The notes beneath the pieces are model-generated. The model saw only the letters and a program-made list of their open reading frames with translations, did not search any database and was not told the DNA's origin. Below, one piece after another: positions 1,517 to 42,483 of a stretch of 64,000 nucleotides of DNA; positions within the stretch are counted from its first letter, which is position 1, and each line of letters opens with the position of its first letter. Position numbers and translations under genes: made by a program. The stretch comes from Halocafeteria seosinensis (lineage: Eukaryota > Sar > Bigyra > Bicosoecida), in NCBI GenBank assembly GCA_001687465.1, contig LVLI01000066.1:58303-122302 (forward strand). The letters are read 5' to 3'.

Positions 1517-3928
1517 ATGGTCACTGATAGCACCGAGAGTCGATTAAGAATGGAGAAGAGAGTATCCTCGGTATACAAATCGATGCTGGTTTGCATCGTA
1601 GCTTTGCTTGTGGCAAGTGGTATCTCCTCAGCCATGGCCACGGCAGCAGAAGACGAGGATATCCAGGAAGAGCAGCTATTCATGAGTTCCTACTCCCGAC
1701 CACCAACTTATTTTCTTCGACATTCCATTCCTCCTCGAGAGGAGAAGAAGCAACAACATGCGCCAGTGCATAGACGAAATCTGATTGAAACGTCAGCTCT
1801 GCCAACTTGGGCGAACTGGCTGCTTGGCGCCCTCGGCGGAAGTGGCTCTGTCGGTTTGGTAATCTTGTGGATATGGAAATCCTGTTTAAAGTATCAGTTT
1901 CGGAAAGAAGATCCTTTCTCATATCGTGTGGCCACGGAACTGGATTTGGACTCGACCACTTATGCTCCTTCCAATCCGGATGCCCAGCGCTCTCCCAATG
2001 AATACCGTCCAGATCTGTTAGTCCAATATCTTCGAGCCAATCTACAATTGTTGGTGATTTGGTCCAGAAAAGAGGGTTCAAGTATATCTTTGTTTGATTA
2101 TTTTCGTAAATATGGAGATGACGCGCGTCATCTTTGTCTCTGTTTCGGGAAGAAGGGCACAACGGCTGATCTAAGCCACTTCGCATCTGCGTTCGCGACT
2201 GCATTGAAGAATGGTCAAGGTGACCCACTTGAGATGCATGAAGCAAGTACGGACACAAGGCTTCAAGGACGGCAGCAGTTTGTCCTGAAACGGAAAGGGT
2301 GCTGTCGAAGGATGTTTTGCTTGGGTAAACTCATTTCACCGGAAGAACTACAGCCGCGGGCATCTCCAACGTTGAAGCGTGACGTTTTCCTCCGATTTTG
2401 CAAACTGATAGCCACATCGCCCGATCACTCGGTAAGTACAGCTAAATTGAGGGATCCTCCTTTGTCAATATATCTAGACTGTACTGACACTGAAATGGAC
2501 CCGGATTTTATTCCTGTGGACATTGCGTGGAGGGGTATGAACGACCTCTCCAAGAATCCGTGGGAAAACATGGGAAGTCCCTTACTGATCAATCCGTGGA
2601 CCGTCCTGCTAGGTGACGAAAACATTCAAATCTCTTTGTATGCCTACCATTCGGAGGAAAACTGCCCCATTGAATTTGCTACCAAGAGGAACGGGCAACC
2701 TGATAGGCAACGTGTCACTTCCGGCCAAAGTCATCTTAACTTGGCGACATTTAAGAGAGAAAGCTGGGGTCTGCGGCTCACTTCGAGTGCACTAGTCGAG
2801 AGACATGGTATTGAGAATGGAAACATCGTCTTCCATCTGAAGGCCACAATTCAGAATCGCGAAGAATTCCAGCTTAAGCAACTAAGCGAAAATTTATCGT
2901 ACTGCACACTACCGGCTCCGTCAATGGATCGACTTGTCTTCAAGCAGGCGCAATATCGTGAACGCTTTCGACGCTGGTGTAACGATTCCAGTGATGAAGC
3001 AATTCTTCAGGCAATCCACGCTCCTCGATTAAAGTTGAATATCCCTACCATCGAGTCTGTAAATAGCAATCTCTTAACGGATCCAATAGGGTGGGCAGAT
3101 AAGAATGAAAAGCTGTTCTGGACCGGTATCGTTCCATTGTCAGACATGTTTGTTCTGTTTTGTGACGATAGTCCAGTTGAATTCTGCGATGCAAGCACCA
3201 ATCGAGTTCCTATAGAGCGACTAGTTCAATGCCCGGAGGAGTACAGTTTGCGTCCTACCGAGTCCTCTTTATACACCGTCGACAGCGTATCTGCTCCGTT
3301 CAAGATTCAGCTTGAATGCAATGACCAAGTTCATTCCGAAATAAGACAACGGAAGTCATTCACGGTTGGTCAGAGCAGCGTTAACGTAATATTTGACTGG
3401 AGTAAGCTACCTCCTCTATATAAGTGGGATGAGCTTACTCTGCTCTATCGAAGTTGGAGACTTCACCGTCTCTTTGGGCAGCAGACAGATGAGGCTGCAC
3501 ACCCAGTCAAGCGACCGAAATTGAATAAATGCTATCAAAAGTTGACACTACGAGACAAGTACTCTAACAAAACGTCAGGGGAAGGGATCCAGACGAAGAA
3601 TTTATTTTCCCTGTCAAATCCCAACAGGAAGTGGATTCTCTTCGAAGGAGAAGCAGGAGTTGGGAAGACCACCTTATTCAAGCATTTTGCTCAGTCATGG
3701 TCTCTCGAAGAGACCGAGGGTAATGAGATAGGTGAGGTGATGAAGGATAAGTTCACGTGGGTACTATATCTTCAAATGCATCATTTGATACATGTAGAAA
3801 ATGAGTACGCGAAAGCTGATGGGGATACATGCTTGGGGATTCTTCTCTCCAAGAGCTTCATGAAGCTTAAGGAAACCTTTAGCGACGAGGTTGCTGCGTG
3901 CGATATTACCGCGCAGCAAGCAGCGTAA
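1517..3928 (+). CDS. NLR-like receptor A, 5' part (membrane segments and Walker A half of NACHT)
   Basis: This is the N-terminal 803 residues of an NLR-like protein whose full-length paralogue is at 10319-17764. A signal-like hydrophobic stretch (about residues 23-42, SMLVCIVALLVASG) is followed by a conserved RRNL motif and a second hydrophobic segment (about 95-118). Then comes a roughly 550-residue domain I do not recognise, and a P-loop GEAGVGKTT near residue 711. The frame stops at 3926-3928, just before the Walker B strand, which is in another frame of the overlapping downstream reading. NACHT NTPases are nucleotide-driven signalling switches, so this half alone should not function as one. 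Translation may start at 1517 or at the Met at 1550. The break is either a disabling frameshift, a sequencing error or an unusually short intron; I favour a frameshift. Confidence 0.8.
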   Translation: MVTDSTESRLRMEKRVSSVYKSMLVCIVALLVASGISSAMATAAEDEDIQEEQLFMSSYSRPPTYFLRHSIPPREEKKQQHAPVHRRNLIETSALPTWANWLLGALGGSGSVGLVILWIWKSCLKYQFRKEDPFSYRVATELDLDSTTYAPSNPDAQRSPNEYRPDLLVQYLRANLQLLVIWSRKEGSSISLFDYFRKYGDDARHLCLCFGKKGTTADLSHFASAFATALKNGQGDPLEMHEASTDTRLQGRQQFVLKRKGCCRRMFCLGKLISPEELQPRASPTLKRDVFLRFCKLIATSPDHSVSTAKLRDPPLSIYLDCTDTEMDPDFIPVDIAWRGMNDLSKNPWENMGSPLLINPWTVLLGDENIQISLYAYHSEENCPIEFATKRNGQPDRQRVTSGQSHLNLATFKRESWGLRLTSSALVERHGIENGNIVFHLKATIQNREEFQLKQLSENLSYCTLPAPSMDRLVFKQAQYRERFRRWCNDSSDEAILQAIHAPRLKLNIPTIESVNSNLLTDPIGWADKNEKLFWTGIVPLSDMFVLFCDDSPVEFCDASTNRVPIERLVQCPEEYSLRPTESSLYTVDSVSAPFKIQLECNDQVHSEIRQRKSFTVGQSSVNVIFDWSKLPPLYKWDELTLLYRSWRLHRLFGQQTDEAAHPVKRPKLNKCYQKLTLRDKYSNKTSGEGIQTKNLFSLSNPNRKWILFEGEAGVGKTTLFKHFAQSWSLEETEGNEIGEVMKDKFTWVLYLQMHHLIHVENEYAKADGDTCLGILLSKSFMKLKETFSDEVAACDITAQQAA

Positions 3929-6900
3929 ACAGAGTGATATTCTTTTCCTCCTGGATGGGTGCGACGAAGTAAAAACTAATCCATTTGAACTTGGTTCACT
4001 CGGTGGGAGAATGTTTTCCGTTCTTCGCCAAATGGGAGTGTTCGTTTTTGTATCGTCGCGATTCTCGAGTCATACGGCGAGTCGTCAGGATGGTATCCCC
4101 TTAGTTAACAGGTACTTTAGCTCTTTTGTAGTGGTGGAGGGACTCACACCGGAGGCTCGCAAACTTTTTGTGGAACAATATGCTCAAGAACGTTATCCAG
4201 ACAGCAGAGGTAACCAACTGCATCTTTCCCAGACACTGCAGCTCTCCTTCCGGCTCAACGATCGGCTTGACTATCTCGGTGCTAATCCGACGCTCCTGGA
4301 AGCGATATGTTTTGTATATGTAGAGAGCTCAGGAAGCTTCTTTGAATCTACAAAGAAGGACATTCGCATCACGCCAATTTACGCTCGGACTGTGAAACAT
4401 TTGGTGCACAAATGGTCGACGATATCATGCTCGTCTTCACCCGACGATGATCCCCTTGACGTGTCACTAAAAATGTTAGAGGATGTAGCCTTACGACTGG
4501 ACGAAGATGGAGAAAATCTTCATGAGGAGAACGTTTCCACTGATAAAGACGTGTCTCTACATCGTTTGCAAAAGATCTTTGCAAAGTATCGCGAGGAATT
4601 TCGGGGACCACTAAAGTCTGTAGAGCGGGTGACCGAGTTTTTCGAGCGTGTTGGTCTGTTGAGGATTGTGTGCCGCACGGGTGACGCAGATCAAACCTAT
4701 GAATTCATTCATCGTTCTTACTGGGAATATTTTGTGGCTCTAGGGGAATTTAGAAAGAGTAAGTCTCGCCCCGCCAGATACCTTATTCAATCTGAGTCTC
4801 GACTTTGGGATCGGGTTTTCGACTTCTACGTCAGCATATTTAGCGAACAGCAAAACATTAACACTATTACTGATTTGCTTCATAGCTTACATGGTTTGCT
4901 ATGTGGGGAGCATGTATCCGGTTGTACACCAGATCAAGGCCCCCATCGGTTCACCGAACTTTTACTTGAAGTGCATCCAGATAAATTGGAAAAAGTATCG
5001 CTTCACATGATAATGTCGGCTTCAGACGAAATACGATCGCTTTTGTTTTATGCAGGTGAAATAGGCAGTTTTCGTCTTGTTAGCTGGATCCTAGCTCAGA
5101 CTGCTCAGCGTAACTATCAATGTGGCGAGAAGGAAACCTATAGCGAGCAAAGAGCACTTGTCCAAGTTGCACTCGCGGGATCTTCGAAAGGAGGACGATC
5201 TGCTTGTTGCCGAAGGATACTGGATACCATGGATACTGATTTTTATCGGGTTGAGGAAACTTCGTGGTCAGCTATTTACATAGCATCGCGAGAAGCTAGT
5301 GCCCCGGGAGCTGCCGCATGTTTGCAGTTGCTACTGGCTGAAGCTAAGCTGTCCGAAACCCCGGAGTTTATTAAACAGGAATCTATGAAAATCGCAGGAG
5401 AACGGAGTCACGAACGTTGCGTCGCCCTGTTCTTAATCTGGTGTGACGGTGTTGTAGGTGAAGTCGCTGCACAAGTATTGGGTGACGCCTGGATGTCGAT
5501 GGCCCCACAAAAAAGAATAAATGCCGCAAAGAGTGAACTTAATTGTTTTGAAGAGTTAGTACAAGCGTTGCAACGGGATGATGTGGAACGACTTTACGCA
5601 CTCAATGATGGCGGAAAGGATGTAAGCTTACAGTTCTCTCGAAAGGGACATGAGAATTGCTATTCTCCCGTATGGATTGCTGTGATATTAGACAGACCAA
5701 ACACAATATTGCCATTGTATACGTGCAATGCGACTATCGACGAAGTGCTTCCATACCAGCGTGTAAAGTTGATGTTTGAGGAAGTTTATCCTCGGTCAAG
5801 TGAAATGGACTGTTGGCTGAACACCGAGCTCTCCATGGATGAAGAGACGAAACTGACGCCTTATGCTTTAGCCTCGAGCTTGGGGCGAATTGATTGTGTG
5901 GAAGCTTTGGAGCAAACAAAGGTGCCTCTCAAGAATGATAAAGCACTGAGTCTTGGTCCTCTTCGAGGAGCCATACGAACTGGCCAGTTGGCCTGTGTCA
6001 AACACTTCGTTGGCGAAGGAAGAATAGACACCGACTTAATTGAGGAGTCAATTTTGTTTGATCGAAATGTAACTTTGGAATTTTTGCTTTCTCGGAGGCA
6101 ATTGACCGAAACACCTGACCAGGACGACGAGTTTGTTAGTTATTGTTTTCATTTATGTTTAAAGAAGGACAGTGGAAAATGCCTGCTGGAATTACTGGAT
6201 GGAGCTGAATGGAGACGGTTATTGCGTGATCGGGCGGGATATTCAGACAACGAGTTTGTTAGTTATTGCTTGCATTCATGCTTAAAAAGCGATTGCGGGA
6301 AGTGCCTCGTCGAGTTGCTGAATACGTCTCAATGGATGGATATACTCTGCCAGCAGAAGGGATGCTCTTTTGCGAAACTCATCGGCTCTTGCTTGCAATC
6401 ATGCTTAGAAAATGATTGCGGGAAGTGCCTCGTCGAGTTGCTGAATACATCTGAATGGATGGATATATTCTGCCAGCAGAAGGGGTGCTCTTCCGCGGAA
6501 CTCATTGGTTTTTGCTTTCAGTCATGCTTAGAGAAAGATAGCGGAAAGTGCCTCGTGGAGCTACTGAGAACAAGTCGATTGCAAAATATTCTCTGTGGAC
6601 AAGGCGAGTCCACTGAAGATTTTACTGTTCGGTGCTTTAAAATGTGCTTAGAGAAGAATCGTGGAGGTTGTGTTGAGGGTTTGCTAAGTGTGACTCAACT
6701 GAACGACAGTATCGTCCCTACGGCTCATAGGGCCACTGTCGCTATCAATGACGCGGTGACACTCGATGCGATCTATTGCTTGGAGCCCCTTGTATATTCC
6801 TGTTTGGAGAGATTTTCTTCCGAAATAGTGGGATTGAGGGACGAACACATCATCTTAGCCGCAAAATATGGCTCGGAGCGTGTTCTACGGACATTGATTA

Positions 6901-8183
6901 CCAAGCTGAAGGTGCAACCCTCGCAATTGTTCACTGAGCAGGGACATTATTCTTTACTATTTTTGGCGGCTTTGAATGGTCATGATAAATTGATAAAATC
7001 TCTGATGGGAGACTTTGAAATCAGCACACATCAAGGAGTCTCAGAGCAAGGCGAAAGTGTTTTGTTTGCAGCAGCCTTGAGTGGGAATGTAAATTGTCTA
7101 AACGAATTGCCAAGTTCCGATGTAGCGAATCTCAAAGAGCAAAAAAGTTCGTATGGGCTGTTACCTCTTGATGTGGCTTGTCTGGTGGACTCTTCGGAAT
7201 GTATCAAATTCTTAATGCCCACTAAGCACACGGAGTCGGGCAAGAAGAGGCTGAAAATCCGCCACGAGTGGCTACGCGATCTCCCTGATACTGTCTCGCT
7301 GCCTTGTGTGCTAACTGAGCAGATTGTTCATGATAAACAGCGCAAGAGCAAAGTTCATACGGTCGAGGTAAATGCAAAGACTATTGTCGATAATCTGTTC
7401 AAAGCGCTACCTACATACACGTCTGTCGCACATGGCACGGATCAGCAGCAGCAGCAGCAGCATCATTACGATGATGATCATAAACGCAGTAACAACAACG
7501 CATATACACCTAGTACGACACCGGAATATGACAACCAAGATGAAGATGGGTTTGAGGTATTGGACATGGAAGAATGCAATCAATCCACGATTACAGATGA
7601 TGCGTTTGGACATATTGGTCAACTATCGCAATTGCGAGTATTGCGGATGTTTGGGTGCAATCAGTCCACGATTACAGATGATGCGTTCCGACACATTCGT
7701 CAGTTATCACGATTGCAAAGACTGAATATGATTGGGTGCGATCAATCCACGATTACAGATGATGCTTTCCGACATATTAGGCAATTATCACAATTGCAAG
7801 AATTGTTGGTCAAAGGGTGCAATCAATGCACGATTACAGATGATGCTTTCCGACATATCGGTCAATTATCGCAATTGCGAGTATTGTGGATGAATGAGTG
7901 CAATCAATCCACGATCACAGATGATGCGTTCCGACATATTGGGCAGTTATCACAATTGCGAGAATTGTTGGTCAAAGAGTGCAATCAAGCCACGATTACC
8001 GATGAAGCGTTCCGACATATTAGGCAATTATCGCAATTGCGAGTATTGTGGATGAGTGGATGCGATCAGTTTTCGGAGGATGCATTCCGACATGTCCGTC
8101 ATTTGTCCCATTTGGAAATACTTGGGAAGAGAGGGGCAACCACTGGTTCGGAGGGACTTGAGACAGTCCGCGAAGATAGCTAG
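3891..8183 (+). CDS. NLR-like receptor A, 3' part (Walker B, ankyrin, Cys-repeat, LRR)
   Basis: This 1430-residue reading continues the protein begun at 1517 in another frame. It opens with the NACHT Walker B motif ILFLLDGCDEV and has the NACHT-typical YEFIHRSYWEYF helix. Ankyrin-like helical repeats follow (for example SSLGRIDCVEALEQ), then four full and one partial copies of a Cys-rich 41-residue repeat (6144-6710) and further ankyrin-like repeats. A Gln/His-rich linker encoded by CAG triplets near 7440 leads into six 27-residue leucine-rich repeats of the STITDDAFRHIGQLSQLR type (7575-8060) plus a partial one. It aligns along its length with the intact copy at 10319-17764, which has more Cys repeats. 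The first Met at 3891 is not a natural start; true coding probably enters around 3890-3924 from the upstream frame. Confidence 0.8.
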   Translation: MLRAILPRSKQRKQSDILFLLDGCDEVKTNPFELGSLGGRMFSVLRQMGVFVFVSSRFSSHTASRQDGIPLVNRYFSSFVVVEGLTPEARKLFVEQYAQERYPDSRGNQLHLSQTLQLSFRLNDRLDYLGANPTLLEAICFVYVESSGSFFESTKKDIRITPIYARTVKHLVHKWSTISCSSSPDDDPLDVSLKMLEDVALRLDEDGENLHEENVSTDKDVSLHRLQKIFAKYREEFRGPLKSVERVTEFFERVGLLRIVCRTGDADQTYEFIHRSYWEYFVALGEFRKSKSRPARYLIQSESRLWDRVFDFYVSIFSEQQNINTITDLLHSLHGLLCGEHVSGCTPDQGPHRFTELLLEVHPDKLEKVSLHMIMSASDEIRSLLFYAGEIGSFRLVSWILAQTAQRNYQCGEKETYSEQRALVQVALAGSSKGGRSACCRRILDTMDTDFYRVEETSWSAIYIASREASAPGAAACLQLLLAEAKLSETPEFIKQESMKIAGERSHERCVALFLIWCDGVVGEVAAQVLGDAWMSMAPQKRINAAKSELNCFEELVQALQRDDVERLYALNDGGKDVSLQFSRKGHENCYSPVWIAVILDRPNTILPLYTCNATIDEVLPYQRVKLMFEEVYPRSSEMDCWLNTELSMDEETKLTPYALASSLGRIDCVEALEQTKVPLKNDKALSLGPLRGAIRTGQLACVKHFVGEGRIDTDLIEESILFDRNVTLEFLLSRRQLTETPDQDDEFVSYCFHLCLKKDSGKCLLELLDGAEWRRLLRDRAGYSDNEFVSYCLHSCLKSDCGKCLVELLNTSQWMDILCQQKGCSFAKLIGSCLQSCLENDCGKCLVELLNTSEWMDIFCQQKGCSSAELIGFCFQSCLEKDSGKCLVELLRTSRLQNILCGQGESTEDFTVRCFKMCLEKNRGGCVEGLLSVTQLNDSIVPTAHRATVAINDAVTLDAIYCLEPLVYSCLERFSSEIVGLRDEHIILAAKYGSERVLRTLITKLKVQPSQLFTEQGHYSLLFLAALNGHDKLIKSLMGDFEISTHQGVSEQGESVLFAAALSGNVNCLNELPSSDVANLKEQKSSYGLLPLDVACLVDSSECIKFLMPTKHTESGKKRLKIRHEWLRDLPDTVSLPCVLTEQIVHDKQRKSKVHTVEVNAKTIVDNLFKALPTYTSVAHGTDQQQQQQHHYDDDHKRSNNNAYTPSTTPEYDNQDEDGFEVLDMEECNQSTITDDAFGHIGQLSQLRVLRMFGCNQSTITDDAFRHIRQLSRLQRLNMIGCDQSTITDDAFRHIRQLSQLQELLVKGCNQCTITDDAFRHIGQLSQLRVLWMNECNQSTITDDAFRHIGQLSQLRELLVKECNQATITDEAFRHIRQLSQLRVLWMSGCDQFSEDAFRHVRHLSHLEILGKRGATTGSEGLETVREDS
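6144..6710 (+). repeat. Cys-rich 41-residue (123-bp) repeat block in NLR A
   Basis: Units start at 6144, 6267, 6390 and 6513, with a partial one at 6636. The consensus is CFQSCLEKDSGKCLVELL followed by a W and a second C-rich helix. Units 2 and 3 are nearly identical in DNA, which indicates recent duplication. The helical pattern suggests a divergent ankyrin- or TPR-like solenoid. Confidence 0.85.
7575..8130 (+). repeat. 81-bp leucine-rich-repeat array in NLR A
   Basis: Six exact 81-bp units start at 7575, 7656, 7737, 7818, 7899 and 7980, and a shortened one at 8061. Each encodes C-(N/D)-Q-STITDDAFRHI-x-QLSxL, a cysteine-containing LRR. Differences between units cluster in the few residues after the QLS motif. 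Confidence 0.9.
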
Positions 8184-8480
8184 GCGTGTCTACATGCGCC
8201 ATGACACGTGTTCATGTCAAAGACGTACGGACACCGGTTAAGTGCGCCCACGTGTATAGTGAGCTCGTTTCTGGAGAAGAGCTTGAATCGATTTAGGGAA
8301 CCCGAACGTAAACCAGAACTATGGGGTATACTAAGCTTAAACAGTTCGAAACGTAGGTATTACGATAATCTTGAGGTGGCGCCGATCTAAATAGGTGCAT
8401 TTATTATTCCTCCCATCACATGAAGCTCAATCATATCTTCACCTGTACTGTTTTAGTAACGTCAGCATGGATATATCTAG
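8184..8480. other. 3' flank homologous to the flank of NLR B
   Basis: The non-coding sequence after the stop of NLR A matches 17765-18245 after NLR B. Shared blocks include cgaacgtaaac, agtttaaacagttcg-like sequence and cacctgtactgtt. The duplication therefore extends past the coding region. The NLR B flank carries an extra insert at about 17842-18078 that is absent here. Confidence 0.6.
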
Positions 8481-9059
8481 AGCGTTCTATTAGCCAGGCC
8501 ACTGGTCAGATCTTTAGTGCATTGCCGTCCAACACCTAGCAATCCGCAATGACTTTTCGTTGTTAGACACTAGACGGAGCACCAAGAATTTGCCACGTCC
8601 TGGATTTAGGTACCGATGGTTTCACCACACGCGCCCTTCCATTCCATCATGTTCAAACCCAATTCACAGGTTTGCGCACTAGTGGTGACAAGGCACAGCT
8701 GGGGAAGTGCTGTCACATATGTGTGTGTGCTGGCAATGTGAACTCCGCAGCCGAAGTATGAGAGAAAGGAAAAGAAATGGTAGTTGTTCAACCGCACTTC
8801 CAGTTTGTGTGCAGTTCATAGAGGAGAAGGGACTGGTATGAATGCTGCCGAAGGTCATACTACGGTGCGCATGTTCAAAAAGTGCCAACCTACGCTAATA
8901 GCACCAACTACCGTACGTTGAAATGATTTGTTCAAAGAAGCAGGCACCGGTCAAGGTTCCAAAAGTTGCTGATGTTGGTCAGAACCCAGCTATACGGAAT
9001 CGGTTAACGGAGTCCGTTTTCTGTTAATCTAGCAGCTGCCAGCTATATCAGAATGACCA

Positions 9060-9450
9060 TTAGTTGTTCCAGCTGGACAGGATACGCAGCTTACAGATGG
9101 ATTTGAAACTTTGATAAATCCGCTCCAATAATATGGACTATCACACCAACGTTTGCTGGAACATATTAGCAGCTGAAGAAGTCTCTTCCGAACCTGGAGA
9201 TGTTGCTTGTGTTATGAAGATAGCCGGTTGAACAATCTGGTTGCCCTTCGGAGAAGTGTCCAATCGACCGTCCTTGGCGTTTGCGCCAGATATTGTTGTA
9301 GAATGACTAAAGTATCGCATCTATGATTCGAGGATAGGAAAAGTTCACTAGATATCCCCAGCATTGCCAAGACAGCTACCCGAATAGGGTTGTTTCGCCC
9401 ATCCTCTTTTACTAGGCTTCCTGCGAGTCACCTTCTATATATACAGTATA
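9060..9450 (-). pseudogene. Decayed fragment of the secreted PPP phosphatase gene
   Basis: This stretch aligns with about 19385-19745, the part of the minus-strand phosphatase gene encoding its C-terminal region. Shared words include atggactatcacacc, aagtatcgcatct and gagtcac in the same order and spacing. It has many substitutions and indels and no open frame. It sits downstream of NLR A as the intact gene does downstream of NLR B, so it is the remnant of the phosphatase copy from the same segmental duplication. Confidence 0.65.
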
Positions 9451-10318
9451 TGTACTTTATCCCTTGGGAACCCGTTCTCCATATTCTTCGCTCTTTAATG
9501 ACCCGAAGGTTTCGTCCGAAAAATCTCGTGACCCTGTTTTAGCGTTGATTTTGCCTACCATTTATCCTCTGCTAGGGGAAGCTCCAGAGCTCGCGAAGGT
9601 GTCGACAGCCTGACGACAGGCCTCTTCGGCGCAGTTTGTACTACATGTATGCGACTGTTCGAGTTTTGTTCCAGCTTTCTTCCGATTTTGATATAGAGGG
9701 ACCTTCCATCTCCCCTTCCACCATTGGTACATTCCCCACCGCTTGCTTGCCAACATATCTGCTCACACAATACAAAAAATATACGTACAGTATGTTGATG
9801 TTGCGAGCTGGGTTCCGCACTTCCACCAAAGGTTCACACGCAGCAAATGCTTAACAAGTTTGCCAGCATTGTCATTCATTTCTTGTTTCTATCTTCACAT
9901 ACGTATTTATCTGTCCCTCTCTCTTTGTGTCTTCCTAGCAGCCTCAGGCCCCGTGAGAGTTGTGTACAGTATCAGCTGGAGTAAGTAGGTGCCTATTGCT
10001 CTTCCTCTCATACACTATATTGAGCATTACTAGATGCAACCACTTGCGCAACACCCTACAATTGCTCCTCTGCACCAGACAGCTTAGGCGCGGTCGAAGA
10101 TTCCCGAGAAAAACGACCCGATTCGTTCCGTTACCCTTAGTGAGATCAGACAGCCTATCACCCACCTCGGGAGGAGGCAGACGGGCTGGAGCTTTCCCTC
10201 TCCTATACTGTACGGTATATCTACACAAGAAGAAGAACAAGAGACAAAGAAGGAAGGAATTATTTATTTATTTGTCTGTTTGTGTCTCTCTTTGTGGGAG
10301 TATCCTTCCTTGTTCGAC

Positions 10319-13300
10319 ATGAGAGGCAGCCGAATCCAAGCCCGCTTCGAGGAGGAGAAAGATCATCAGACCCCACCAGCGTGTTCAGAAGAGCACACCA
10401 CCACTACCACCACCTCCACATTGCGAAGACAGCATGGAATGAGGAGACTGGGGTCAGTATCATCCAAGTGGAGGTGGATGAACATCATAGCACTGGTGGG
10501 AACGCTGTTGTTCTTCTTGGCAGCGGCGACTTTGGAGCTCCAGCCTCCTGCGGATCCAGAACCAGGCTCCCAATTCCTCCGTCATACCAGTGCTCACAAG
10601 GATGATGCGAATGTGGAAGCTTCGGTGCGTCGACGGAATCTGAGTCCGTTGGAAATGTCGTTTCTCCCCGAGTGGCTGGTTTGGGTGATCCGAATACTTG
10701 TCCCCAGTGGTGTATTAGGATTCCTCGGGCGCTGGATGTGGAAGTGGTGTCTAATTCACCAGTATCGCAAAGATGATCCCTTCTGCTATCGCGTCGCCAC
10801 AGAGCTGGGGTTGGATTCAACCACATACGCTCGGGCTGATCCGAATGACATGGATGCTCCGACGGATTATCGACCCCATCTACTGCGTCAATACTTGATG
10901 GATAACTTACAATTGCTGGTTGTCTGGTCCCCCGGTCAGAACTCTTTCGTTCCGTTAATTTCCTATCTCCATGATAACAGGGATCAAATACGTCATGTTT
11001 GCGCTTGCCGAGGGAGTGGTGTGAACGACTTAGCTTCATCGTTCGCTGGGGCTCTGCAACATGGTGTGGGTAATTCAATTGAACAAAGCCAAGCAGGTGC
11101 TTTAACACCTGTGCTTGCTGTCCAGAAGTTTAGGCTTATACGGGGAGGGTGCTGTCGAAGGTTATTGTGTTTGGGTCGAGTGATAGAGCCTTGGGCGCTT
11201 GAACCAAGTCATTGCCCCGATTTGAAGCATGATGTATTCCTGAGGTGGTGCGGTGGCATTGCAAGCTCAGGAGAGTATGCTAGTCTTGTAAAGATCGCAA
11301 GGCCTCCGGTGTCTTTGTCCATAAAATGCGATGATATTATGGACCCTGACTACATTCCTGTCAACGTCGTCTGGGACAATACCCAAAGTGAATCTGCATG
11401 GACCAGTATTATAGGGGAACAGAAAATTATGATTTCGCTAGAGCCAGCTCAAACGGGTACACCATGCCCTGTTGAATTCGTTGCAAAGACTGCAGGAGGA
11501 ATTCCGGATCGTCGCCGTAGTCTAGAATCTCCGACTCAGCTTAGTTTGGAAAGACTGAAGCAAGGAAACTACGGCCTGCGTCTCACCCCGAACGCACTAA
11601 TTGAGAGACCTAGTAACGAACATGGCAATACTCCGTTTTATGTGCATGCGTTTGTAGAATCAACAGACAACTACCGGTTGGGACAACTTAACAACGTACG
11701 TGAATATCACGAACTTCAGTGCTCCTCCTGGGAACATCCGTTAGTTAAGCAAGCTGAATATCGTGAACGCCTTCGGCGTTGGTGCAATAATCCTAGCAAT
11801 AACAGCATTGTACAACCCATCCAATCCCCACAAGGATGGCTGAATTTCCCGGCGGTGACCAGCGTAGAGAACAATTACTTCAATGATGAGCCTGGATGGA
11901 AGTGGGAGGCGGGTGAGGAACCATTCTGGACAAATTTAGCTCCTACGTCGGATATGTTCATTTCCCTGTGCGAACACAGTCCTATCGAGCTCTGTCGAGG
12001 GGATAGCAACAGAATCTCTGTCGATCACCTCATTTCATGTCCTCAGAAAATTAGTGTGCATCCGACGGAAGCATCCCTTTACTCTAACAATGAAAATCCC
12101 CGACGCGTGCCCTTTGAATTTCACTTGCAATGCAGTCATAAGATGCATGCAGGGATCGAACAAACGCGTTTATTTGTATTTAGTTATATCGCAAACACGA
12201 ATAGGTCGGAAGTGCGATTTGACTGGAGCAAACTGCCTCCATTGTTCAAGTGTGATTTTCTCCGCTTGCTATATCGAAGCTGGAGGCTTCACCGTCTCTT
12301 TAGTCACGACAGGGAAAAATATTTAGGCACGAAGGAGCGACCGATGTTGAACGATTGCTATCAAAAGCTGACGCTACTAGACAAGCACTCGAAGAATCCT
12401 AACGAAGAGACCCAGACGAGGGAAATCAATGCGACGGAGCTGCTTTCCTTGCCTAGCAGCAACGGCAAATGGGTTCTTTTTGAAGGGCCCGCCGGTGTTG
12501 GCAAAACTACCTTGTTTAAACATTTTGCCCAATCATGGTCTTTATCTGGAAATGAAGCAGAAGAAAATGAAATTGGGCGTCTATTAAGAGATAAATTTTC
12601 ATGGATAATTTGTATTCAGCTTTATCACTTGATGGATATTGAGTGCCACGATAGCGCTGCGGATGGAGAGACGTACCTGGGGAGTCTTCTTTCTAAGAGT
12701 TTCTTGGCTCTAAAAGAAAGTCTCAAAGGCAATGATTCCTCTCAGCAAATTAGCAAAGAGGAAGGCAAACGGATTGTAGAACACATACTAAAGAATGGTA
12801 AGGATGTTCTCTTTCTGTTAGATGGGTGCGATGAAGTAAAGAACAATCCGTTCTCGGCGAAGTCTCACGGCAATAAAGCCTTTACGGCACTGCGGCAAAC
12901 TGCAGCCACAGTGCTTGTCTCATCGAGGTTCTCAAGTCATACGGCGAGCCGGGATCAATACGGAATTCTTCTCGCTGCTAAGTATATTAACTACTTCGTT
13001 GAAGTCGAGGGGCTTCAGCCAGAAGCTCGACGAGGTTTTATACAGCACTATGCTGCTGAATGCTATTCGGATAAGAGGAACCGTTTGAAACTTTATCGGA
13101 ATTTACAGCTGTCATTCCGACTTAATGATCGTCTTAAAGAACTGAGCTCAAATCCGACCCTTTTGGAAGGGATTTGCTTCGTATATGTGGAAAGCGAAGG
13201 TAGATTCTTTGAGTCCACAACGAAAGACTTCCGTGTGACGCCGATTTATGACCGGACAGTGCACCATCTGCTGGACAAGTGGTGGAGATCGTACACTTCG

Positions 13301-16300
13301 AGTGCCGACGAAGACCCTTGTAAAATAGCAAAGAAGATTCTCGAAGATGTAGCTTCTCAGGTGGATAGAGATGATGGCTACACTGATAAACAGATTCCTC
13401 TTAAATTATTGCAAGAAGCTTTTGATAGCCACCGAAGGAAATTCCGAGGACCGTTGAAGCGTCTGAGGGGACCGAGTGAGTTTTTCGAAGGTGTAGGCTT
13501 GTTGCAAATAGTATGTCCCAGTGGTGATGAAAACCAGACTTACGAATTCATCCACCGATCCTACTGGGAGTACTTTTTGGCGCGTCAGCAATTTAAGACT
13601 GTGGATCCAAGAAATGTTGAAAGTCTTGTCGAGGGGGGATCGCGTCTCGGGGATCGGTTTATGGATTTCGTTGTTAGCCTCTTTAGTGAACACCAGAATT
13701 TAGAGGCTGTTACCACTTTGCTTTGTAGTTTGCACAGATCCCTGACAGGTCAGGAAGACGAAGCGTCTCGCGGACGCAGTCGTTTCGTAGAGCTTCTTCT
13801 GGAAGTCGATCCCGGGGCCTTGGAGCAGATATCGCTGAGTGAAATCACGTGTACTGCTGAAGAAATGAAGCTTTTGCTATTTTGTGCGGGGCAAGTAGGC
13901 AGTCTTCGCCTCATCCGGTGGATTTTAGATAATTGCAGCGATAGCTCAGTGAACCGGTTAGAGCTGAACCAAATCGCACTCGCTGGCGCGGTAAAAGGAG
14001 CACGCTTTGATTGTTGTCGAGCTGTTTTGGATACATTAGAAACTAAATTTTACCTGATAACCGATGTCGCATGGTCGCCGATTTATATTGCATCGAGAGA
14101 TGGATGTGCTCTCTGTCTGCAGTTACTGCTCAGCTGGCTCCTGGCTCGTCCCAACCTTCCAGCTATTGCTGACTCTGTCAGGCACGAATCTTTGAAGATA
14201 GCAGGACAACAAAACCATGATCGCTGTACTTCCTTACTCTTGATCTGGTGCGAAGGCAACATTGATGATTGTAATGCGCCAGTCCTGAGTGACTTCTGGT
14301 TCTCGCTGAATAGAGAGGAAAGGATCAGTAACGCGAAGCACTATCTTGACTGTTTTGACGACCTAGTCGAAGCGTTGCAGGACGAGAATGTGGACCGACT
14401 ATATGCACTCAACGACGACGGAAAGGATGTAAGTTTGCAGTTCTCTCGGAGGGGACAAGAAAATTGCTACTCCCCAGCATGGGTTGCTGTTGCATTAGAC
14501 AAGCCAAACACAATATTACCATTGTATACGTGCAATGCGACTATCGATGAAGTTCTGCCTTCTCGACGTATCAAGTTGATGTTCCAAGAAATTTGCTCGA
14601 CGTCAACGTCAAGCGAAATGGAATGTTTGCTGGACAAGGAGCTCTCCGTGGATGAAGAGACGGAACTTACTCCTTATGTTTTAGCCTCAAGTCTGGGACG
14701 ACTTGATTGTGTGGAAGCCCTGGAGCAAACGAAAGTGTCTCTGAAGAACGATGCAGCACTAGGTCTTGGTCCTCTGCGAGCAGCCGCCCGAACGGGCCAG
14801 TTGGCATGCCTGAAGCACTTTCTCGAAGCAGGACGCATATATATAGATACAGAGGTAATCAAGGATTCCATTTTGTTTGATCGAGATGAAACTTTCGAGT
14901 TTTTGCTTTCTCAAGGGAGTCAATGGGCAATTACCATCGATTTTATCGGGTATTGCTTCCAATTGTGCCTAGAGCAACGTAGCATAGGATGTCTTGAGTT
15001 ATTGCTGGCTAACGAATGGAAAGATCAGCTTTGTCAACATGGTCAGTCCAATGAAGGGGAGGTCATGAGCCAGTGTTTGCATATATGTCTCGACGAAGAT
15101 AGTGGACGTTGTCTTGGGGCATTGCTTAGCACAAAGCAGTGGAGAGATGCGGTCTGTCGGCATGAGGGATTTCATATGGAGGAACTCGTTTATCAGTGCT
15201 TTCAGCTATCAATGGAGAAAGACAACACAAAGTGTCTTGAGGAGCTACTTGACGTCGATGAGTGGAGACAGTTGCTTTATCAACATGCGGGATACAATGA
15301 AGGAGAGTTCTTGGATCATTGCTTCCAGTTGTGTATCGAACACGACAAGAATAAGTGTCTCGTGCACTTGATAGGTTCTGAGCGGTGGAGAGGTTCTCTT
15401 TGCCAGTTCAATGGATGCAGTGAAAATGGTCTCATTAACTCTTGCTTTCAGTCGTGCTTAAACAAAGATAGTCGAAAGTGCCTAGTGGAGCTTCTGAGTA
15501 CAACTCAATGGAAAGATATGCTCTGCGAACAGGAGAGGTTAACTTTTGAAGAGCTCATCGGTTCTTGCTTTCAATCATGCTTGGGAAACGATCGCGGGAA
15601 GTGCCTCGTCGAGTTACTGAATACATCTCAATGGAAGGATTTACTCTGTGAACAGATGGGATGCTCGTTTACTGAACTCATCGGTTCTTGCTTAGAGAAA
15701 GATAGTGGGAAGTGCCTCGTTGAGTTGCTGAATACATCTCAATGGAAGGATTTACTCTGTGAACAGATGGGATGCTCGTTTACTGAACTCATCGGTTTTT
15801 GTTTTCAGTCATGCTTAGAGAAAGATAGCGTAAGGTGCCTCGTTGAGTTGCTGAATGCATCTCAATGGAAAACTTTACTCTGTGAGCAGAAGGGATGCTC
15901 GTTTACTGAACTCATCGGTTCTTGCTTTCGGTCATGTTTAGAAAAAGATAGTGTAAAGTGCCTCGTTGAGTTGCTGAATGTATCTCAATGGAAGAATTTA
16001 CTCTGTGAGCAGAAGGGATGCTCGTTTACTGAACTCATCGATTCTTGCTTTCGGTCATGCTTAGAGAAAGATAGTGAAAAGTCCCTCGTTGAGTTGCTGA
16101 ATGCATCTCAATGGAACGATATACTCTGTGAGCAGGAGGAATGCTCGTTTACTGAACTCATCGATTCTTGCTTTTGGTCATGCTTAGAGTCAGATAGTGG
16201 AAAGTGCCTCGTAGAACTAGTGAGTACTAGCCTGTGGACCGATATGCTCTGTGAACAAGGCGAGTCCGTTGAAGATTTTACTGTCCGGTGCTTTCGATTG

Positions 16301-17764
16301 TGTATAGAAAGAGATCGTGGACGCTGTGTTGAATGTTTGCTAAGCGCCACGCAACTGAGTAACAGTATCATCCCTACGGCTGACATGGGAGAGGTCGCTA
16401 TCAAAGACGTAGTGAAATTAGATGCGATCCATTGCTTGGAGCCTCTTGTATCTTCCTGTGTGGAAAAATTTTCTTCCGAAATTGTTGGGTTGAGGGAAGA
16501 GCACATCTTCTTGGCCGCAAAATATGGTTCGGAGCCCGTTCTACGGACATCAATCTCCAGACTGAAGATACAACCCTCACGATTATTCACGGAGCAAGGA
16601 CATTATTCTTTACTATTCTTGGCGGCTTTGAATGGTCATGACGAGTTAATGAAATCTCTTATGGAAGACTTTGACATTAACGCACATCAAGGAGTCTCAA
16701 AGCATCGCGAAAGTGTTTTGTTTGCGGCAGCCCTGAGTGGAAATGTGAATTGTCTAAAACAATTGCCAAATTCCGATGTAGCATATCTTAGGAAGAAAAA
16801 GACGTCGTATAAACTGTTACCTCTTCATGCGGCTTGTCTAATGGACTCTTCGGAATGTATTAAATTCTTAATGCCCACTGAACCTTGGTTGGACGACAAC
16901 AGCCAGAAGACGAGGCTGAGGATCCACCCAGAGTGGCTACGCGATCTCCCTGATACTGTCTCGTTGCCTCGCGAGTTAACTGAGCACATTGTTCATGATG
17001 GGCGGCGCAACAGAAATGTCCATATGGTCGAGGTGAATGCAAAGACTATTGTTGATAATCTATTCAAAGCGCTACCTACATACACGTCTGTCTCAAGACT
17101 CTCAACTGACACCCGTAGTACGTATGATGATCATCATCATTATCAACAGCAGCATAATTACGATGACGATCATAATTTCAGTAACAACAGTGCATATACA
17201 CCGAGTACGACCCCAGAACATGACAACCAAGAAGAGGATGGGTTTGAGTTATTGGGTATGAGTTTGTGCAACCAATCCACAATTACAGATGATGCGTTCC
17301 GACATATTGGGCAATTATCACACTTGCAACACTTGTTTATGAATGAGTGCGATCAATCCACGATTACAGATGATGCGTTCCGATATATTGGGCAATTATC
17401 ACAGTTGCGAAGATTGGATATGATTGGATGCAATCAATCCACGATTACAGATGATGCGTTCCGACATATCGGTCAGTTACCACACTTGCAAACATTGTGG
17501 ATGAATAGGTGCAACCAATCTACGATTACAGATAATGCGTTTCGACATATTGGGCAATTATCACAATTGCAAAGACTGTGGATGATTGGGTGCGATCAAT
17601 CCACGATTACAGATGATGCGTTCCGACATATTGGTCAATTATCACAACTGCAAACATTGTGGATGATCGGGTGCAATCAATTTTCAAAGGATGCGTTCCG
17701 ACATGTCCATCATTTGTCCCATTTGAAAATACATGGGAAGATAGCCGCAACAAAAGATAGCTAG
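10319..17764 (+). CDS. NLR-like receptor B: membrane-anchored NACHT-ankyrin-Cys-repeat-LRR protein
   Basis: This is one uninterrupted frame of 2481 residues from the Met at 10319; an in-frame Met also exists at 10280. A hydrophobic segment near residues 57-75, the conserved RRNL motif and a second hydrophobic segment (about 115-140) suggest a membrane anchor. An unrecognised domain of about 550 residues precedes the P-loop GPAGVGKTT (12485) and the NACHT Walker B VLFLLDGCDEV (about 12806). YEFIHRSYWEYF marks the end of the NACHT winged-helix part. Then come ankyrin-like repeats, eleven full and one partial Cys-rich repeats (14954-16360), more ankyrin-like repeats and a His/Gln-rich linker. 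Five 27-residue LRRs and a partial one (17267-17740) end the protein. By family logic LRRs or ankyrins sense a ligand and NACHT oligomerises, but the output is unknown because the N-terminal domain is unassigned. Confidence 0.85.
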   Translation: MRGSRIQARFEEEKDHQTPPACSEEHTTTTTTSTLRRQHGMRRLGSVSSKWRWMNIIALVGTLLFFLAAATLELQPPADPEPGSQFLRHTSAHKDDANVEASVRRRNLSPLEMSFLPEWLVWVIRILVPSGVLGFLGRWMWKWCLIHQYRKDDPFCYRVATELGLDSTTYARADPNDMDAPTDYRPHLLRQYLMDNLQLLVVWSPGQNSFVPLISYLHDNRDQIRHVCACRGSGVNDLASSFAGALQHGVGNSIEQSQAGALTPVLAVQKFRLIRGGCCRRLLCLGRVIEPWALEPSHCPDLKHDVFLRWCGGIASSGEYASLVKIARPPVSLSIKCDDIMDPDYIPVNVVWDNTQSESAWTSIIGEQKIMISLEPAQTGTPCPVEFVAKTAGGIPDRRRSLESPTQLSLERLKQGNYGLRLTPNALIERPSNEHGNTPFYVHAFVESTDNYRLGQLNNVREYHELQCSSWEHPLVKQAEYRERLRRWCNNPSNNSIVQPIQSPQGWLNFPAVTSVENNYFNDEPGWKWEAGEEPFWTNLAPTSDMFISLCEHSPIELCRGDSNRISVDHLISCPQKISVHPTEASLYSNNENPRRVPFEFHLQCSHKMHAGIEQTRLFVFSYIANTNRSEVRFDWSKLPPLFKCDFLRLLYRSWRLHRLFSHDREKYLGTKERPMLNDCYQKLTLLDKHSKNPNEETQTREINATELLSLPSSNGKWVLFEGPAGVGKTTLFKHFAQSWSLSGNEAEENEIGRLLRDKFSWIICIQLYHLMDIECHDSAADGETYLGSLLSKSFLALKESLKGNDSSQQISKEEGKRIVEHILKNGKDVLFLLDGCDEVKNNPFSAKSHGNKAFTALRQTAATVLVSSRFSSHTASRDQYGILLAAKYINYFVEVEGLQPEARRGFIQHYAAECYSDKRNRLKLYRNLQLSFRLNDRLKELSSNPTLLEGICFVYVESEGRFFESTTKDFRVTPIYDRTVHHLLDKWWRSYTSSADEDPCKIAKKILEDVASQVDRDDGYTDKQIPLKLLQEAFDSHRRKFRGPLKRLRGPSEFFEGVGLLQIVCPSGDENQTYEFIHRSYWEYFLARQQFKTVDPRNVESLVEGGSRLGDRFMDFVVSLFSEHQNLEAVTTLLCSLHRSLTGQEDEASRGRSRFVELLLEVDPGALEQISLSEITCTAEEMKLLLFCAGQVGSLRLIRWILDNCSDSSVNRLELNQIALAGAVKGARFDCCRAVLDTLETKFYLITDVAWSPIYIASRDGCALCLQLLLSWLLARPNLPAIADSVRHESLKIAGQQNHDRCTSLLLIWCEGNIDDCNAPVLSDFWFSLNREERISNAKHYLDCFDDLVEALQDENVDRLYALNDDGKDVSLQFSRRGQENCYSPAWVAVALDKPNTILPLYTCNATIDEVLPSRRIKLMFQEICSTSTSSEMECLLDKELSVDEETELTPYVLASSLGRLDCVEALEQTKVSLKNDAALGLGPLRAAARTGQLACLKHFLEAGRIYIDTEVIKDSILFDRDETFEFLLSQGSQWAITIDFIGYCFQLCLEQRSIGCLELLLANEWKDQLCQHGQSNEGEVMSQCLHICLDEDSGRCLGALLSTKQWRDAVCRHEGFHMEELVYQCFQLSMEKDNTKCLEELLDVDEWRQLLYQHAGYNEGEFLDHCFQLCIEHDKNKCLVHLIGSERWRGSLCQFNGCSENGLINSCFQSCLNKDSRKCLVELLSTTQWKDMLCEQERLTFEELIGSCFQSCLGNDRGKCLVELLNTSQWKDLLCEQMGCSFTELIGSCLEKDSGKCLVELLNTSQWKDLLCEQMGCSFTELIGFCFQSCLEKDSVRCLVELLNASQWKTLLCEQKGCSFTELIGSCFRSCLEKDSVKCLVELLNVSQWKNLLCEQKGCSFTELIDSCFRSCLEKDSEKSLVELLNASQWNDILCEQEECSFTELIDSCFWSCLESDSGKCLVELVSTSLWTDMLCEQGESVEDFTVRCFRLCIERDRGRCVECLLSATQLSNSIIPTADMGEVAIKDVVKLDAIHCLEPLVSSCVEKFSSEIVGLREEHIFLAAKYGSEPVLRTSISRLKIQPSRLFTEQGHYSLLFLAALNGHDELMKSLMEDFDINAHQGVSKHRESVLFAAALSGNVNCLKQLPNSDVAYLRKKKTSYKLLPLHAACLMDSSECIKFLMPTEPWLDDNSQKTRLRIHPEWLRDLPDTVSLPRELTEHIVHDGRRNRNVHMVEVNAKTIVDNLFKALPTYTSVSRLSTDTRSTYDDHHHYQQQHNYDDDHNFSNNSAYTPSTTPEHDNQEEDGFELLGMSLCNQSTITDDAFRHIGQLSHLQHLFMNECDQSTITDDAFRYIGQLSQLRRLDMIGCNQSTITDDAFRHIGQLPHLQTLWMNRCNQSTITDNAFRHIGQLSQLQRLWMIGCDQSTITDDAFRHIGQLSQLQTLWMIGCNQFSKDAFRHVHHLSHLKIHGKIAATKDS
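14954..16360 (+). repeat. Cys-rich repeat block in NLR B, about 12 units
   Basis: Units of 120-123 bp encode the same pattern as in NLR A (CLVELLNTSQWKDLLCEQ and variants). The first four units are divergent and the later ones nearly identical. One unit near 15690 lacks 12 bp at its start. The paralogue has five units, so this block has expanded or contracted since the duplication. Confidence 0.9.
17267..17740 (+). repeat. 81-bp leucine-rich-repeat array in NLR B
   Basis: Five full 81-bp units start at 17267, 17348, 17429, 17510 and 17591, with a shortened one from 17672. Codons for STITDDAFRHIGQL are almost invariant between units and between the two NLR genes, while the LxxLxM positions vary. 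Confidence 0.9.
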
Positions 17765-33560: not shown

Positions 33561-34124
33561 TGGGTACCAATGCAAGATATCCTAAATGCAAACTGGTGGT
33601 GGGATGAAGTAGCGCCTTTAATAATGGAAACTGAGAGTAATTATACTGCACACGAGGTGTACTACACATCGTTGCACACCCCCTAATAAGTTTTCTCCCT
33701 GTGCGTTTCTTACGGACTCAAAAGGGCTGCTGGACTACAATTGTGTGTACGACTGGTACATATTGTACTTGTCAACAGGTTTGTCGTGTTTCTGCAGCGT
33801 GCTGACAAAAACCAGTCGAAAACGACGCTACCTTGGCGTCATAATCAACACCAAGTCACCATCCAGTCCAATACCAGCCCACCACATATTCATGTAGCAA
33901 GCCGTGGTTGTACAGTACAAGTGCATGGTATGCTGCTATACAGTATTAGCAAGATCGGCCAGTTCTCACCTCCATGATTGTTCTAAACACGTCTCTTTAT
34001 ACTCTTTGTACCGTCGCTATCGGTACCAGACATTGCTGTACGTTTACCGGTATTGATTCCGATTCCTCGATTCCAGCTGTTTCTGCCTGTTCTCACCAGT
34101 GACCGGCGGGCGTCGAGCCAGCGG
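33561..34124. other. Intergenic, no feature recognised
   Basis: Short open frames here lack protein-like composition. The stretch contains the promoter of the secreted Cys-rich gene at 34125. Confidence 0.5.
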
Positions 34125-41400: not shown

Positions 41401-42483
41401 GTACTTTTGGGCCCATTGAAACAAAGGTACTCCGATTGCTACTAATTCGCCCATATCAATGTCAGTGGGGCGATAAGGCTTAAGTTTAGCCATGCGTGGT
41501 GCCAGCTGTTGCTTCCGTTCTTGATATACTGGATCGTCCCACCAAGTCCTTGGCTGATGTTTCTTCTTCTTAATGTGCCCTTCAGTAACATCCTCCTCTA
41601 CTGACTTATGCCCTAATTGATCTGTCAGACTGGCGAGGGGTTCTTCTAGGCTGTCTAGTTCCATGCTCTGCGCCAGTTTGGTGGACGCCATAGCAGATTT
41701 TTTCTTGTTGAGGGGATGGCGAATGGTTTCCCGCATCGGCTTCTCTGTCTCTCTCACAGGAACATACAAACCGCTGAATTCATTACCAACACGGATATAT
41801 CGCGTCGATCCACCACGAAGAGACATTTCCCACCCTTCGGTAGAAGGGTTATCATCTTTAGGTTTCGCTTTTTCCAAGAGGTCTTTTTCTTCCATGAGTT
41901 CTCTGTACCCCTCGGAGCGTTTCACGATGGATTCATCAGGATGGCGCTTTACCGAATTCGACAACCTTTGCTGAACCATGTCCCATTCACGCAGCCGAGC
42001 TTGATACAGTTTACGGCTTCGTGCTTCCCGTTGAATGGCCGATTTTTCAAACGGCTGCAATCCTTCCAGGCTATCTTCCTCCTCTTCTTCGCCCTGCAGC
42101 GGTGGCTGCGGCTGACTGGAAGACGAGCGAGGTTGCTCCGCCGTCTTGCCGTGAGTTGATTGGTCTTCGAATCGCACATTCCCACCACCACCACCACCGC
42201 CACTGGAGGTGTACGTCGGTGAGGATACTGGAGGTCTTCTTTGCTGCTGTGAGAAGCTCGATGTAGATTCCAGGCTGTCGCGCGTCTGCACTGTCCATTG
42301 CTCGATCTGTCGATCCGGTTTGGGAGGACTGGAAATGTGACTGGACGGGCAAAATTCTTCATCCTCGTAGAGGACATCAGCTAATTCCCCCAAATCGCGG
42401 TTCTCGTCCGCCGTCTTTACTCGTCTCGCGCTCGATGACGGAGACGCCGACCGAGCCAGTCTCTCCGAATACGGATTCGACAT
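35485..42483 (-). CDS. MYCBP-associated protein fused to a degenerate phosphoglycerate kinase (ciliary)
   Basis: Two exons, 35843-42483 and 35485-35779, are joined over a 63-nt GTAAGT...CAG intron; the protein has 2311 residues. The first 300 residues are disordered. Residues of about 310-600 match the MYCBPAP family (PYRPTDIDMGELVAIGVPLF, then an Ig-like/ASH-type part with NQSDCAVYFSWRR and EELTFYFRSYDSG). The middle is charged and coiled. From about 1200 a phosphoglycerate kinase fold is readable: KVVLIRADLDFS, VLVIENLLRL (about 1401), LADVVVFDAVN (about 1572) and VCVLGGGSNPASLV (about 1735). The C-terminal exon then gives VVWAGPLGATELEE. A SAM-like module (SPVHTSLWLYSMCPG) interrupts the kinase near 1445-1520. 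The usual GGGD nucleotide loop reads AGASS, so catalysis is doubtful. MYCBPAP homologues are axonemal central-apparatus proteins, hence the ciliary location. Confidence 0.8.

Follow-up and report, generated by a model that had tools for sequence, protein, structure and literature searches.

Receptors that combine a NACHT domain with leucine-rich repeats (LRRs) are usually discussed for animals and those that combine NB-ARC with LRRs for plants, and the NOD-like receptors (NLRs) of animals are cytosolic proteins with fronts of the CARD or PYD type. For fungi, an NLR census reports ankyrin (ANK), WD and tetratricopeptide (TPR) repeats and no LRR, and takes as its criterion of high internal conservation that repeats be over 85% identical across at least 100 amino acids (PMC4986451). 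Here we describe two genes, A and B, on a 64,000-nucleotide stretch of the genome of the bicosoecid protist Halocafeteria seosinensis (contig LVLI01000066.1, positions 58,303 to 122,302; below, the window). Both follow one plan, in which predicted membrane-anchoring segments precede a NACHT domain, ankyrins and LRRs. With a probability of roughly two in three, we interpret these genes and their relatives as membrane-tethered receptors of the STAND type (signal transduction ATPases with numerous domains; NLR-type), whose specificity would be renewed by repeat turnover, selection on the LRR face and exchange of segments. Judged by their sequences, they are NLR-type in switch and sensor, and unusual in the predicted anchor, in the two sensor kinds per chain and in having no known effector family.

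Domain organization and repeat arrays of genes A and B

Gene B is an unbroken open reading frame (ORF) of 2494 codons (10280-17764), which gives 2481 amino acids from its first ATG at 10319, a later methionine at ORF residue 54 being a possible alternative start. Its order is signal segment, transmembrane (TM) segment, a 550-residue N-terminal region, NACHT, ankyrins, a 41-residue ankyrin-like array, further ankyrins and 27-residue LRRs. The initial annotation had claimed hydrophobic segments, NACHT, ankyrins and terminal LRRs in one chain of about 2480 residues, and for gene B this is borne out in a single frame. The NACHT P-loop and DGCDE Walker B that it had noted were also recovered (Walker A at residue 736, LFLLDGCDE at 844), as was YEFIHRSYWEYFLA at 1088. 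Pfam matches to NACHT (E 7e-10) and Ank_2 (E 4.8e-19) exceed the cut-off, and LRR_4 (E 1.1e-5) lies slightly below it with 25.9 of 27 bits.

Gene A (1517-8183) has the same domain order, but in two ORFs of different frames that overlap at 3891-3928, with the break between Walker A and Walker B. Because of this break both NACHT pieces of gene A stay below the Pfam cut-off (front piece, E 1.2e-4). We rejected an intron as its cause, since gene A is shorter there than its relatives, not longer. Two intact proteins, as originally proposed, are therefore not encoded: gene B is intact and gene A is broken into two ORFs.

The nucleotide-binding signature of STAND proteins is complete in B (Pfam match and both Walker motifs), and A has both motifs in two frames. 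C-terminal repeats that form superstructures, another STAND/NLR feature, are present as ankyrins and LRRs according to Pfam, an AlphaFold model of the LRR stretch and Foldseek. The presence of NACHT, ankyrins and LRRs in one frame supports the proposed NLR-type architecture. The features of both genes, all on the + strand, are as follows.

Gene A
1517-3928, +: front ORF, 803 amino acids, with signal segment, TM segment, N-terminal region and NACHT start (Walker A at nt 3647)
1583-1639, +: hydrophobic segment 1 (Kyte-Doolittle 2.3)
1820-1876, +: hydrophobic segment 2, putative TM (net charge -2 before, +3 after)
3891-8183, +: rear ORF, with Walker B, putative winged-helix end, ankyrins, 41-residue array and LRRs
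6144-6755, +: 41-residue array, 5 units
6957-7217, +: second ankyrin stretch (Pfam Ank_2, best stretch 1023-1109 of P0003)
7575-8060, +: LRR array, 6 full 81-nt units, then a partial unit

Gene B
10319-17764, +: uninterrupted coding sequence, 2481 amino acids from the first ATG
10484-10540, +: hydrophobic segment 1, putative signal peptide or signal anchor (Kyte-Doolittle 2.29)
10664-11275, +: TM and juxtamembrane region, possible module common to four NB-ARC proteins and one NACHT-ANK protein (hhalign)
10673-10729, +: hydrophobic segment 2, putative TM (net charge -1 before, +2 after)
11276-12379, +: segment of about 370 residues, relatives found only among the four copies (Pfam, PDB and genome search)
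12473-13054, +: NACHT domain (Pfam PF05729, E 7e-10)
13067-14353, +: segment between two inferred recombination boundaries (near residues 930 and 1300-1358)
13541-13582, +: YEFIHRSYWEYFLA, presumably the end of the NACHT winged-helix region (NLRC4 alignment not significant, E 0.25)
14612-14869, +: first ankyrin stretch (top-scoring PDB sequences belong to designed ankyrin-repeat chains, E 7e-7)
14954-16411, +: 41-residue ankyrin-like, Cys-rich array, 12 units
16613-16873, +: second ankyrin stretch (Pfam Ank_2, best stretch 2112-2198)
17267-17671, +: LRR array, 5 full 81-nt units, then a partial unit

Upstream of gene A, at 40-499, there are two direct copies of a sequence of about 220 bp, 92% identical and spaced by about 240 bp.

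Both genes contain tandem units of 123 nt (41 amino acids) and of 81 nt (27 amino acids). By our own count A has 5 of the 41-residue units and B has 12, among them a 37-residue and a 40-residue unit and degenerate final ones; full LRR units number 5 in B and 6 in A. Pfam makes no call on the 41-residue unit, whose pattern suggests a lengthened ankyrin repeat. What had been termed a Cys-rich solenoid is thus a real repeat stretch, which we read instead as an ankyrin-like tandem array.

An AlphaFold model of B residues 2060-2494, computed with gene A as the sole other alignment row, has a mean predicted local distance difference test (pLDDT) score of 51, with ten-residue means of 58-88 across the LRR units, where strands are predicted every 27 residues (model positions 292-296, 319-323, 346-350, 373-377 and 400-404). 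Foldseek returned 50 PDB matches to the LRR model at E up to 0.001, led by FBXL2, Leptospira LRR protein, SKP2 and COI1 entries and including plant NLRs and NLRC4 (E 6e-4 to 9e-4); TM-scores by query length are 0.17-0.30, and more than half of the model has a pLDDT under 50.

A mosaic gene family with a variable LRR strand face

The searched genome comprises 30.6 Mb in 605 contigs, the window being 58303-122302 of contig C38. At least four copies were found (19 of 222 candidates scored): A, B and C within 27 kb, and D elsewhere, on contig C78. Copy C lies as follows.

C38:49382-56146, - strand: copy C (genome search)

All five candidates for the N-terminal region were scored, and it occurs in the four copies and in one stop-carrying fragment beside C. 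The survey of paralogues called for in the initial annotation thus yielded a small, distinct family. B is its sole unbroken member: C, whose NACHT exceeds the Pfam cut-off, has one in-frame TGA inside the second ankyrin stretch (L021 1949-1951), and D has a frame break (L023 3863-3914) and lacks Walker B. Two of the three breaks in A, C and D are close to Walker B. After NACHT all copies carry a motif (FIHRSYWEYF in A, B and C, FIHSSYWEYF in D) that we take to be the end of the winged-helix region.

Two of 34 matches from a search with the rear half were examined. One of them, P0004 from EukProt (transcript GECG01014195.1), has 1401 amino acids that are letter-identical to the 1440-codon rear ORF of D from its first methionine, and unites the NACHT rear, ankyrins and LRRs in a single transcript frame. 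This match is consistent with a protist origin of the sequence. For A, B and C no transcript evidence was found.

Silent divergence between A and B changes along their length. They are at or near silent-site saturation up to about residue 1373 of B, and thereafter their synonymous divergence (dS) is 0.3-1.0. Where both genes use the same fourfold codon box, they have the same third base at 78 of 246 sites before residue 1271 and at 181 of 258 after it; the interval for this change point is 1207-1376, and the gain in log-likelihood (lnL) is 38.2, compared with 8.0 for the best of 500 shuffles. Protein identity is 0.44-0.61 before residue 1374 and 0.68-0.79 after it. Identity between D and A (0.36-0.54, then 0.42-0.53) and between D and B (0.34-0.55, then 0.33-0.55) does not rise, which argues against mere constraint on the sensor half as the cause. 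Composition was rejected as well, as GC content at third positions is 0.42-0.48 throughout. Other pairs show a weak change point, with the exception of B and C, whose agreement likewise rises in the sensor half (94 of 288, then 106 of 198; lnL gain 10.6, obtained without shuffles). A and B can still be aligned in their 3' flanks (70% over 185 bp) but not in their 5' flanks; the flanks of C and D match neither those of A nor those of B.

Trees of the four copies change accordingly along the chain: AC|BD is obtained for the front (722 codons; bootstrap 100), BC|AD for the NACHT rear (404 codons; 99), and AB|CD for the sensor half without LRRs (401 codons; 98), with support for AB|CD falling to 84 if the 41-residue array is also left out (357 codons). 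In a window analysis the boundaries fall at about residue 930 and at 1300-1358, and the middle segment (BC|AD) is the weakest of the three. By these phylogenies the copies are mosaics, in which the front of A is nearest C and its sensor half nearest B. Exchange between paralogues (concerted evolution), a mark of fungal-type NLRs, is thus also found in this family. Mean identity among the LRR units of A and B is 76% (67-89%), and the units are no closer within genes than between them (nucleotide identity 0.831 and 0.824, respectively).

Selection was assessed by counting methods on the 11 full LRR units of A and B, at columns 21, 22, 24, 26 and 27. These are the x positions of LxxLxLxx; they accord with the LRR consensus but were chosen after the alignment had been viewed. 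The proportion of amino-acid-changing differences (pN) is 0.444 at these columns and 0.062 elsewhere, that of silent differences (pS) 0.23 and 0.34. Among 80730 five-column sets only two, the tested set included, reach the observed pN, and the same pattern slid round the unit attains 0.32 at most. The ratio of nonsynonymous divergence (dN) at the five columns to dS of all columns is 1.63 (1.13-2.26 in a bootstrap over units), with 0.8% of 1000 replicates not exceeding 1. Columns 22, 24 and 26 lie inside the predicted strands and columns 21 and 27 flank them, and all 11 units differ in their five-letter combination. The excess is also seen in A alone (pN 0.45, pS 0.16) and in A, B and C pooled (0.52 and 0.40). 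The recent 41-residue units show no such excess at their variable columns (pN 0.25, pS 0.43). Positive selection at an interaction surface, another feature of fungal-type NLRs, was thus detected in the LRRs of A and B and not in their 41-residue repeats, which suggests a diversifying, presumably ligand-binding face on the LRRs.

Six LRR-only genes of the genome (L022, L024, L025, L027, L028 and L029) have the same kind of LRR, and L022 lies about 18 kb from copy C. They and P0005, an LRR-kinase-TIR protein, share the C-N-Q-x-T-I-T-D-x-A-F type with copies A-D; unlike in the copies, NACHT and ankyrins were not found in P0005 and the LRR-only genes scanned (all but L025). Their units have 24 residues in five genes and 27 in L024. 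In each of the five genes with 24-residue units, the corresponding columns rank at or near the top in variation (of 42504 five-column sets, 3 to 418 do as well), with pN below pS there. As L024 and these five genes vary at similar columns, a variable face is a general property of such LRRs in this genome, and we rejected the idea that selection marks the NLR copies alone. The LRR-only genes are possible donors or partners of the NLR copies.

The N-terminal region and other genes

Hydropathy and flanking charge were the means by which topology was judged. Pairs of hydrophobic segments above a Kyte-Doolittle mean of 1.5 occur in A, B and D, and C has the first only, whereas a classical cytosolic NLR has neither signal nor TM segment. 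In A and B the charge balance around the second segment favours a cytosolic NACHT. A, B and D are therefore predicted to be membrane-anchored, in A and B with the NACHT side in the cytosol, in support of the anchoring proposed earlier.

The initial annotation regarded the 550-residue N-terminal region as a possible new effector domain and recommended structure prediction and profile searches, which we carried out. No effector-type domain was recognized: Pfam gave no family at E up to 10, PDB sequences no match, NCBIfam a single match far under its cut-off and PADLOC nothing at E up to 0.1. Viral contigs gave no match. Searches of protein databases with the front half recovered nothing, with 5033 candidates scored in the search at E up to 0.001 and 7991 in that at E up to 10; these negatives are weak because P0004 overlaps the region of the E-0.001 search and was yet not returned by it. 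A profile of the TM and juxtamembrane part of A, B, C and D aligned to a profile of four NB-ARC proteins of the same genome and the NACHT-ANK protein L042 (hhalign E 1.8e-4, probability 49%, score 33.95). None of 100 column shuffles reached this score (best 28.5), the reversed profile gave E 0.72, and the N-terminal region of the NB-ARC proteins itself matches L042 at E 3e-5. This is suggestive of a common origin of the first 200 or so residues with the start of these five proteins, and the 550 residues are therefore probably not one wholly new domain. The other 370 or so residues have no match in Pfam or PDB.

Apart from A, B and C, Pfam NACHT was found in two NACHT-ANK genes on contig C136, of which only L042 has an N-terminal hydrophobic segment in its ORF, and as a match in one gene with WD40 repeats. 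NB-ARC was found at five loci, four over the cut-off. Genes L057-L060 (L060 below it) have open frames of 1146 to 1683 amino acids in the stretches read; on visual inspection they start with a hydrophobic stretch, and a segment resembling a TM precedes NB-ARC. Pfam, applied to two of these four, found NB-ARC and TPR. L059 (3-5051, - strand) has a long array of near-identical 42-residue TPR units with a few variable columns; 14 of the units fit one pattern (pS 0.37, pN 0.20). A six-frame search of the genome disregarding introns gave no match to chlorophyll a/b-binding proteins, so the organism is probably not photosynthetic.

Elsewhere in the window, the ORFs 58019-59461 (+) and 61724-62494 (-), without Pfam match, share a near-identical P-loop block, FHLCCSGISGIGKSLFQLYVIYRVLKEIHN, which is reminiscent of Crinkler/RHS-type proteins. 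An ORF of 2214 amino acids (35839-42483, -) contains a MYCBPAP domain (E 1e-34), which we presume to indicate a ciliated organism, and a phosphoglycerate-kinase stretch slightly under the cut-off. Two further ORFs have ephrin-receptor-like cysteine repeats (34053-35315, +) and GGICGQ-type repeats with, by eye, a hydrophobic start and no Pfam match (44763-46199, +).

Possible function and comparison with known NLR systems

From the computed domain order, mosaic ancestry, A/B selection pattern and transcript-derived match for D, we infer a topology in vivo, a ligand, switching, an output and an immune or allorecognition role as follows. Signal segment and single TM would leave a short stub in the lumen or outside the cell and the remainder in the cytosol, where the ADP-bound NACHT switch would be restrained by the protein's own repeats. 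A ligand or modified self would contact the LRR strand face, with the ankyrins as scaffold or second binding site; this contact would let NACHT swap its nucleotide and oligomerize, and the juxtamembrane modules thereby clustered at the membrane might signal or perforate it. Tandem-repeat turnover, selection on the strand face and the trading of entire segments among paralogues would renew specificity. Putative sensing of pathogens or of self and non-self, as previously surmised, gains support from the LRR-face selection in A and B and from the mosaic exchange. A bolder proposal, to which we give somewhat less than even odds, is that the genome has an NLR repertoire of its own, a convergent, combinatorial counterpart of plant and animal NLRs. 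One membrane-anchored N-terminal module (lumenal stub, TM, a juxtamembrane motif around R-x-x-x-P-F ... G-L-S-x-x-x-Y and a helical region) would have been joined to two switches (NACHT or NB-ARC) and three sensor kinds (ANK plus LRR, ANK, or TPR), with sensor halves exchanged and the anchor itself as effector.

Several observations weigh against the receptor interpretation. Three of the four copies carry a frame break or stop, so that much of the family may be decaying, and the transcript match concerns only D, which lacks Walker B. The second TM segment is only moderately hydrophobic and falls below the cut in copy C, and the AlphaFold model of the N-terminal region was unusable (pLDDT 35) and discarded. 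As to selection, no two of the 11 units agree in their other 22 letters either (9 of these 22 columns vary, 13 are invariant), and an excess of pN over pS at the five columns is confined to three sets: the pool of A and B, A by itself, and the pool of all three copies A, B and C. In B by itself pN equals pS (0.39 each), and it is below pS in C (0.50 and 0.61), in D (0.56 and 0.86) and in L024 (0.59 and 0.65). C and D are near saturation at silent sites. The amino-acid excess thus appears where the young array of A takes part.

Such breaks could mean that the family is a relic, with A, C and D as pseudogenes, only B possibly working, and the mosaics as products of ordinary gene conversion. The breaks in A and D, the TGA in C and the stop-carrying fragment beside C point that way, but each long gene has just one visible break, and amino-acid change in A and B is low outside the five LRR columns (pN 0.06) and in excess at them; we consider this explanation, which is compatible with the receptor interpretation, unlikely. 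Similarly improbable in our view is a system of allorecognition or fusion incompatibility instead of pathogen defence, whose polymorphic LRR faces would recognize other strains as in fungal HET-D and HET-E. Repeat turnover, paralogue exchange and selection on an interaction face match the regime described for Podospora NLRs, although the fungal counterparts have no LRR (PMC4986451). Less probable still is a non-immune STAND signalling protein of development or membrane traffic, with LRR variation as repeat drift. The similarly placed variable columns of the LRR-only genes would agree with it, but drift would not focus change on five exposed strand positions while 13 of 22 other columns are invariant, nor would it raise dN over dS there. 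Finally, we found no transcript of A or B, as would be expected if the large chain were an artefact of the gene model with ankyrins and LRRs on separate transcripts, a risk that the initial annotation had named; with B in one open frame and P0004, identical to part of D, joining the NACHT rear, ankyrins and LRRs, this is hardly credible.

We thus favour NACHT-ANK-LRR receptors, predicted to be membrane-anchored, mosaic and diversifying at the LRR face, in a probably non-photosynthetic protist. They bear directly on the question of whether NLRs arose more than once and suggest that single-celled eukaryotes assembled their own NLR-style detection system. The four copies form a system in which segment swapping is readable from silent sites, and the N-terminal module is a candidate effector amenable to test. 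Among the matches listed by literature searches of open-licence papers (NACHT with ankyrin and LRR in protists, stramenopiles, diatoms and algae, NB-ARC-TPR with transmembrane segments, STAND in oomycetes and labyrinthulomycetes), we recognized no account of this architecture.

With animal NACHT-LRR proteins such as NLRC4, the copies have in common a NACHT followed by C-terminal LRRs. Animal NLRs are not known to have ankyrins between the two; the putative winged-helix end matches NLRC4 only non-significantly (E 0.25), and by Foldseek the LRRs are nearest to the FBXL2, SKP2 and COI1 entries rather than to animal NLRs. The candidate receptors of brown algae, LRR-ROCO and NB-ARC-TPR, are likewise protist receptors with selection reported at concave LRR sites; ROCO relies on a Roc-COR GTPase in place of NACHT, and exon shuffling rearranges its LRRs (PMC11378527). 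The H. seosinensis genome also has NB-ARC-TPR genes, and the LRRs of the copies, unlike those of ROCO, lie in a single frame and would change by repeat turnover and exchange between genes. Similar in mode of evolution are fungal HET-E and HET-D (NACHT-ANK/WD/TPR), for which the census describes a NACHT switch, repeats exchanged within and between genes and selection at the interaction surface (PMC4986451). The LRR units of A and B, 76% identical, fall under the 85% applied there, and, unlike the fungal NLRs of that census, the copies combine ankyrins and LRRs in a single chain, preceded by a predicted signal segment and TM.

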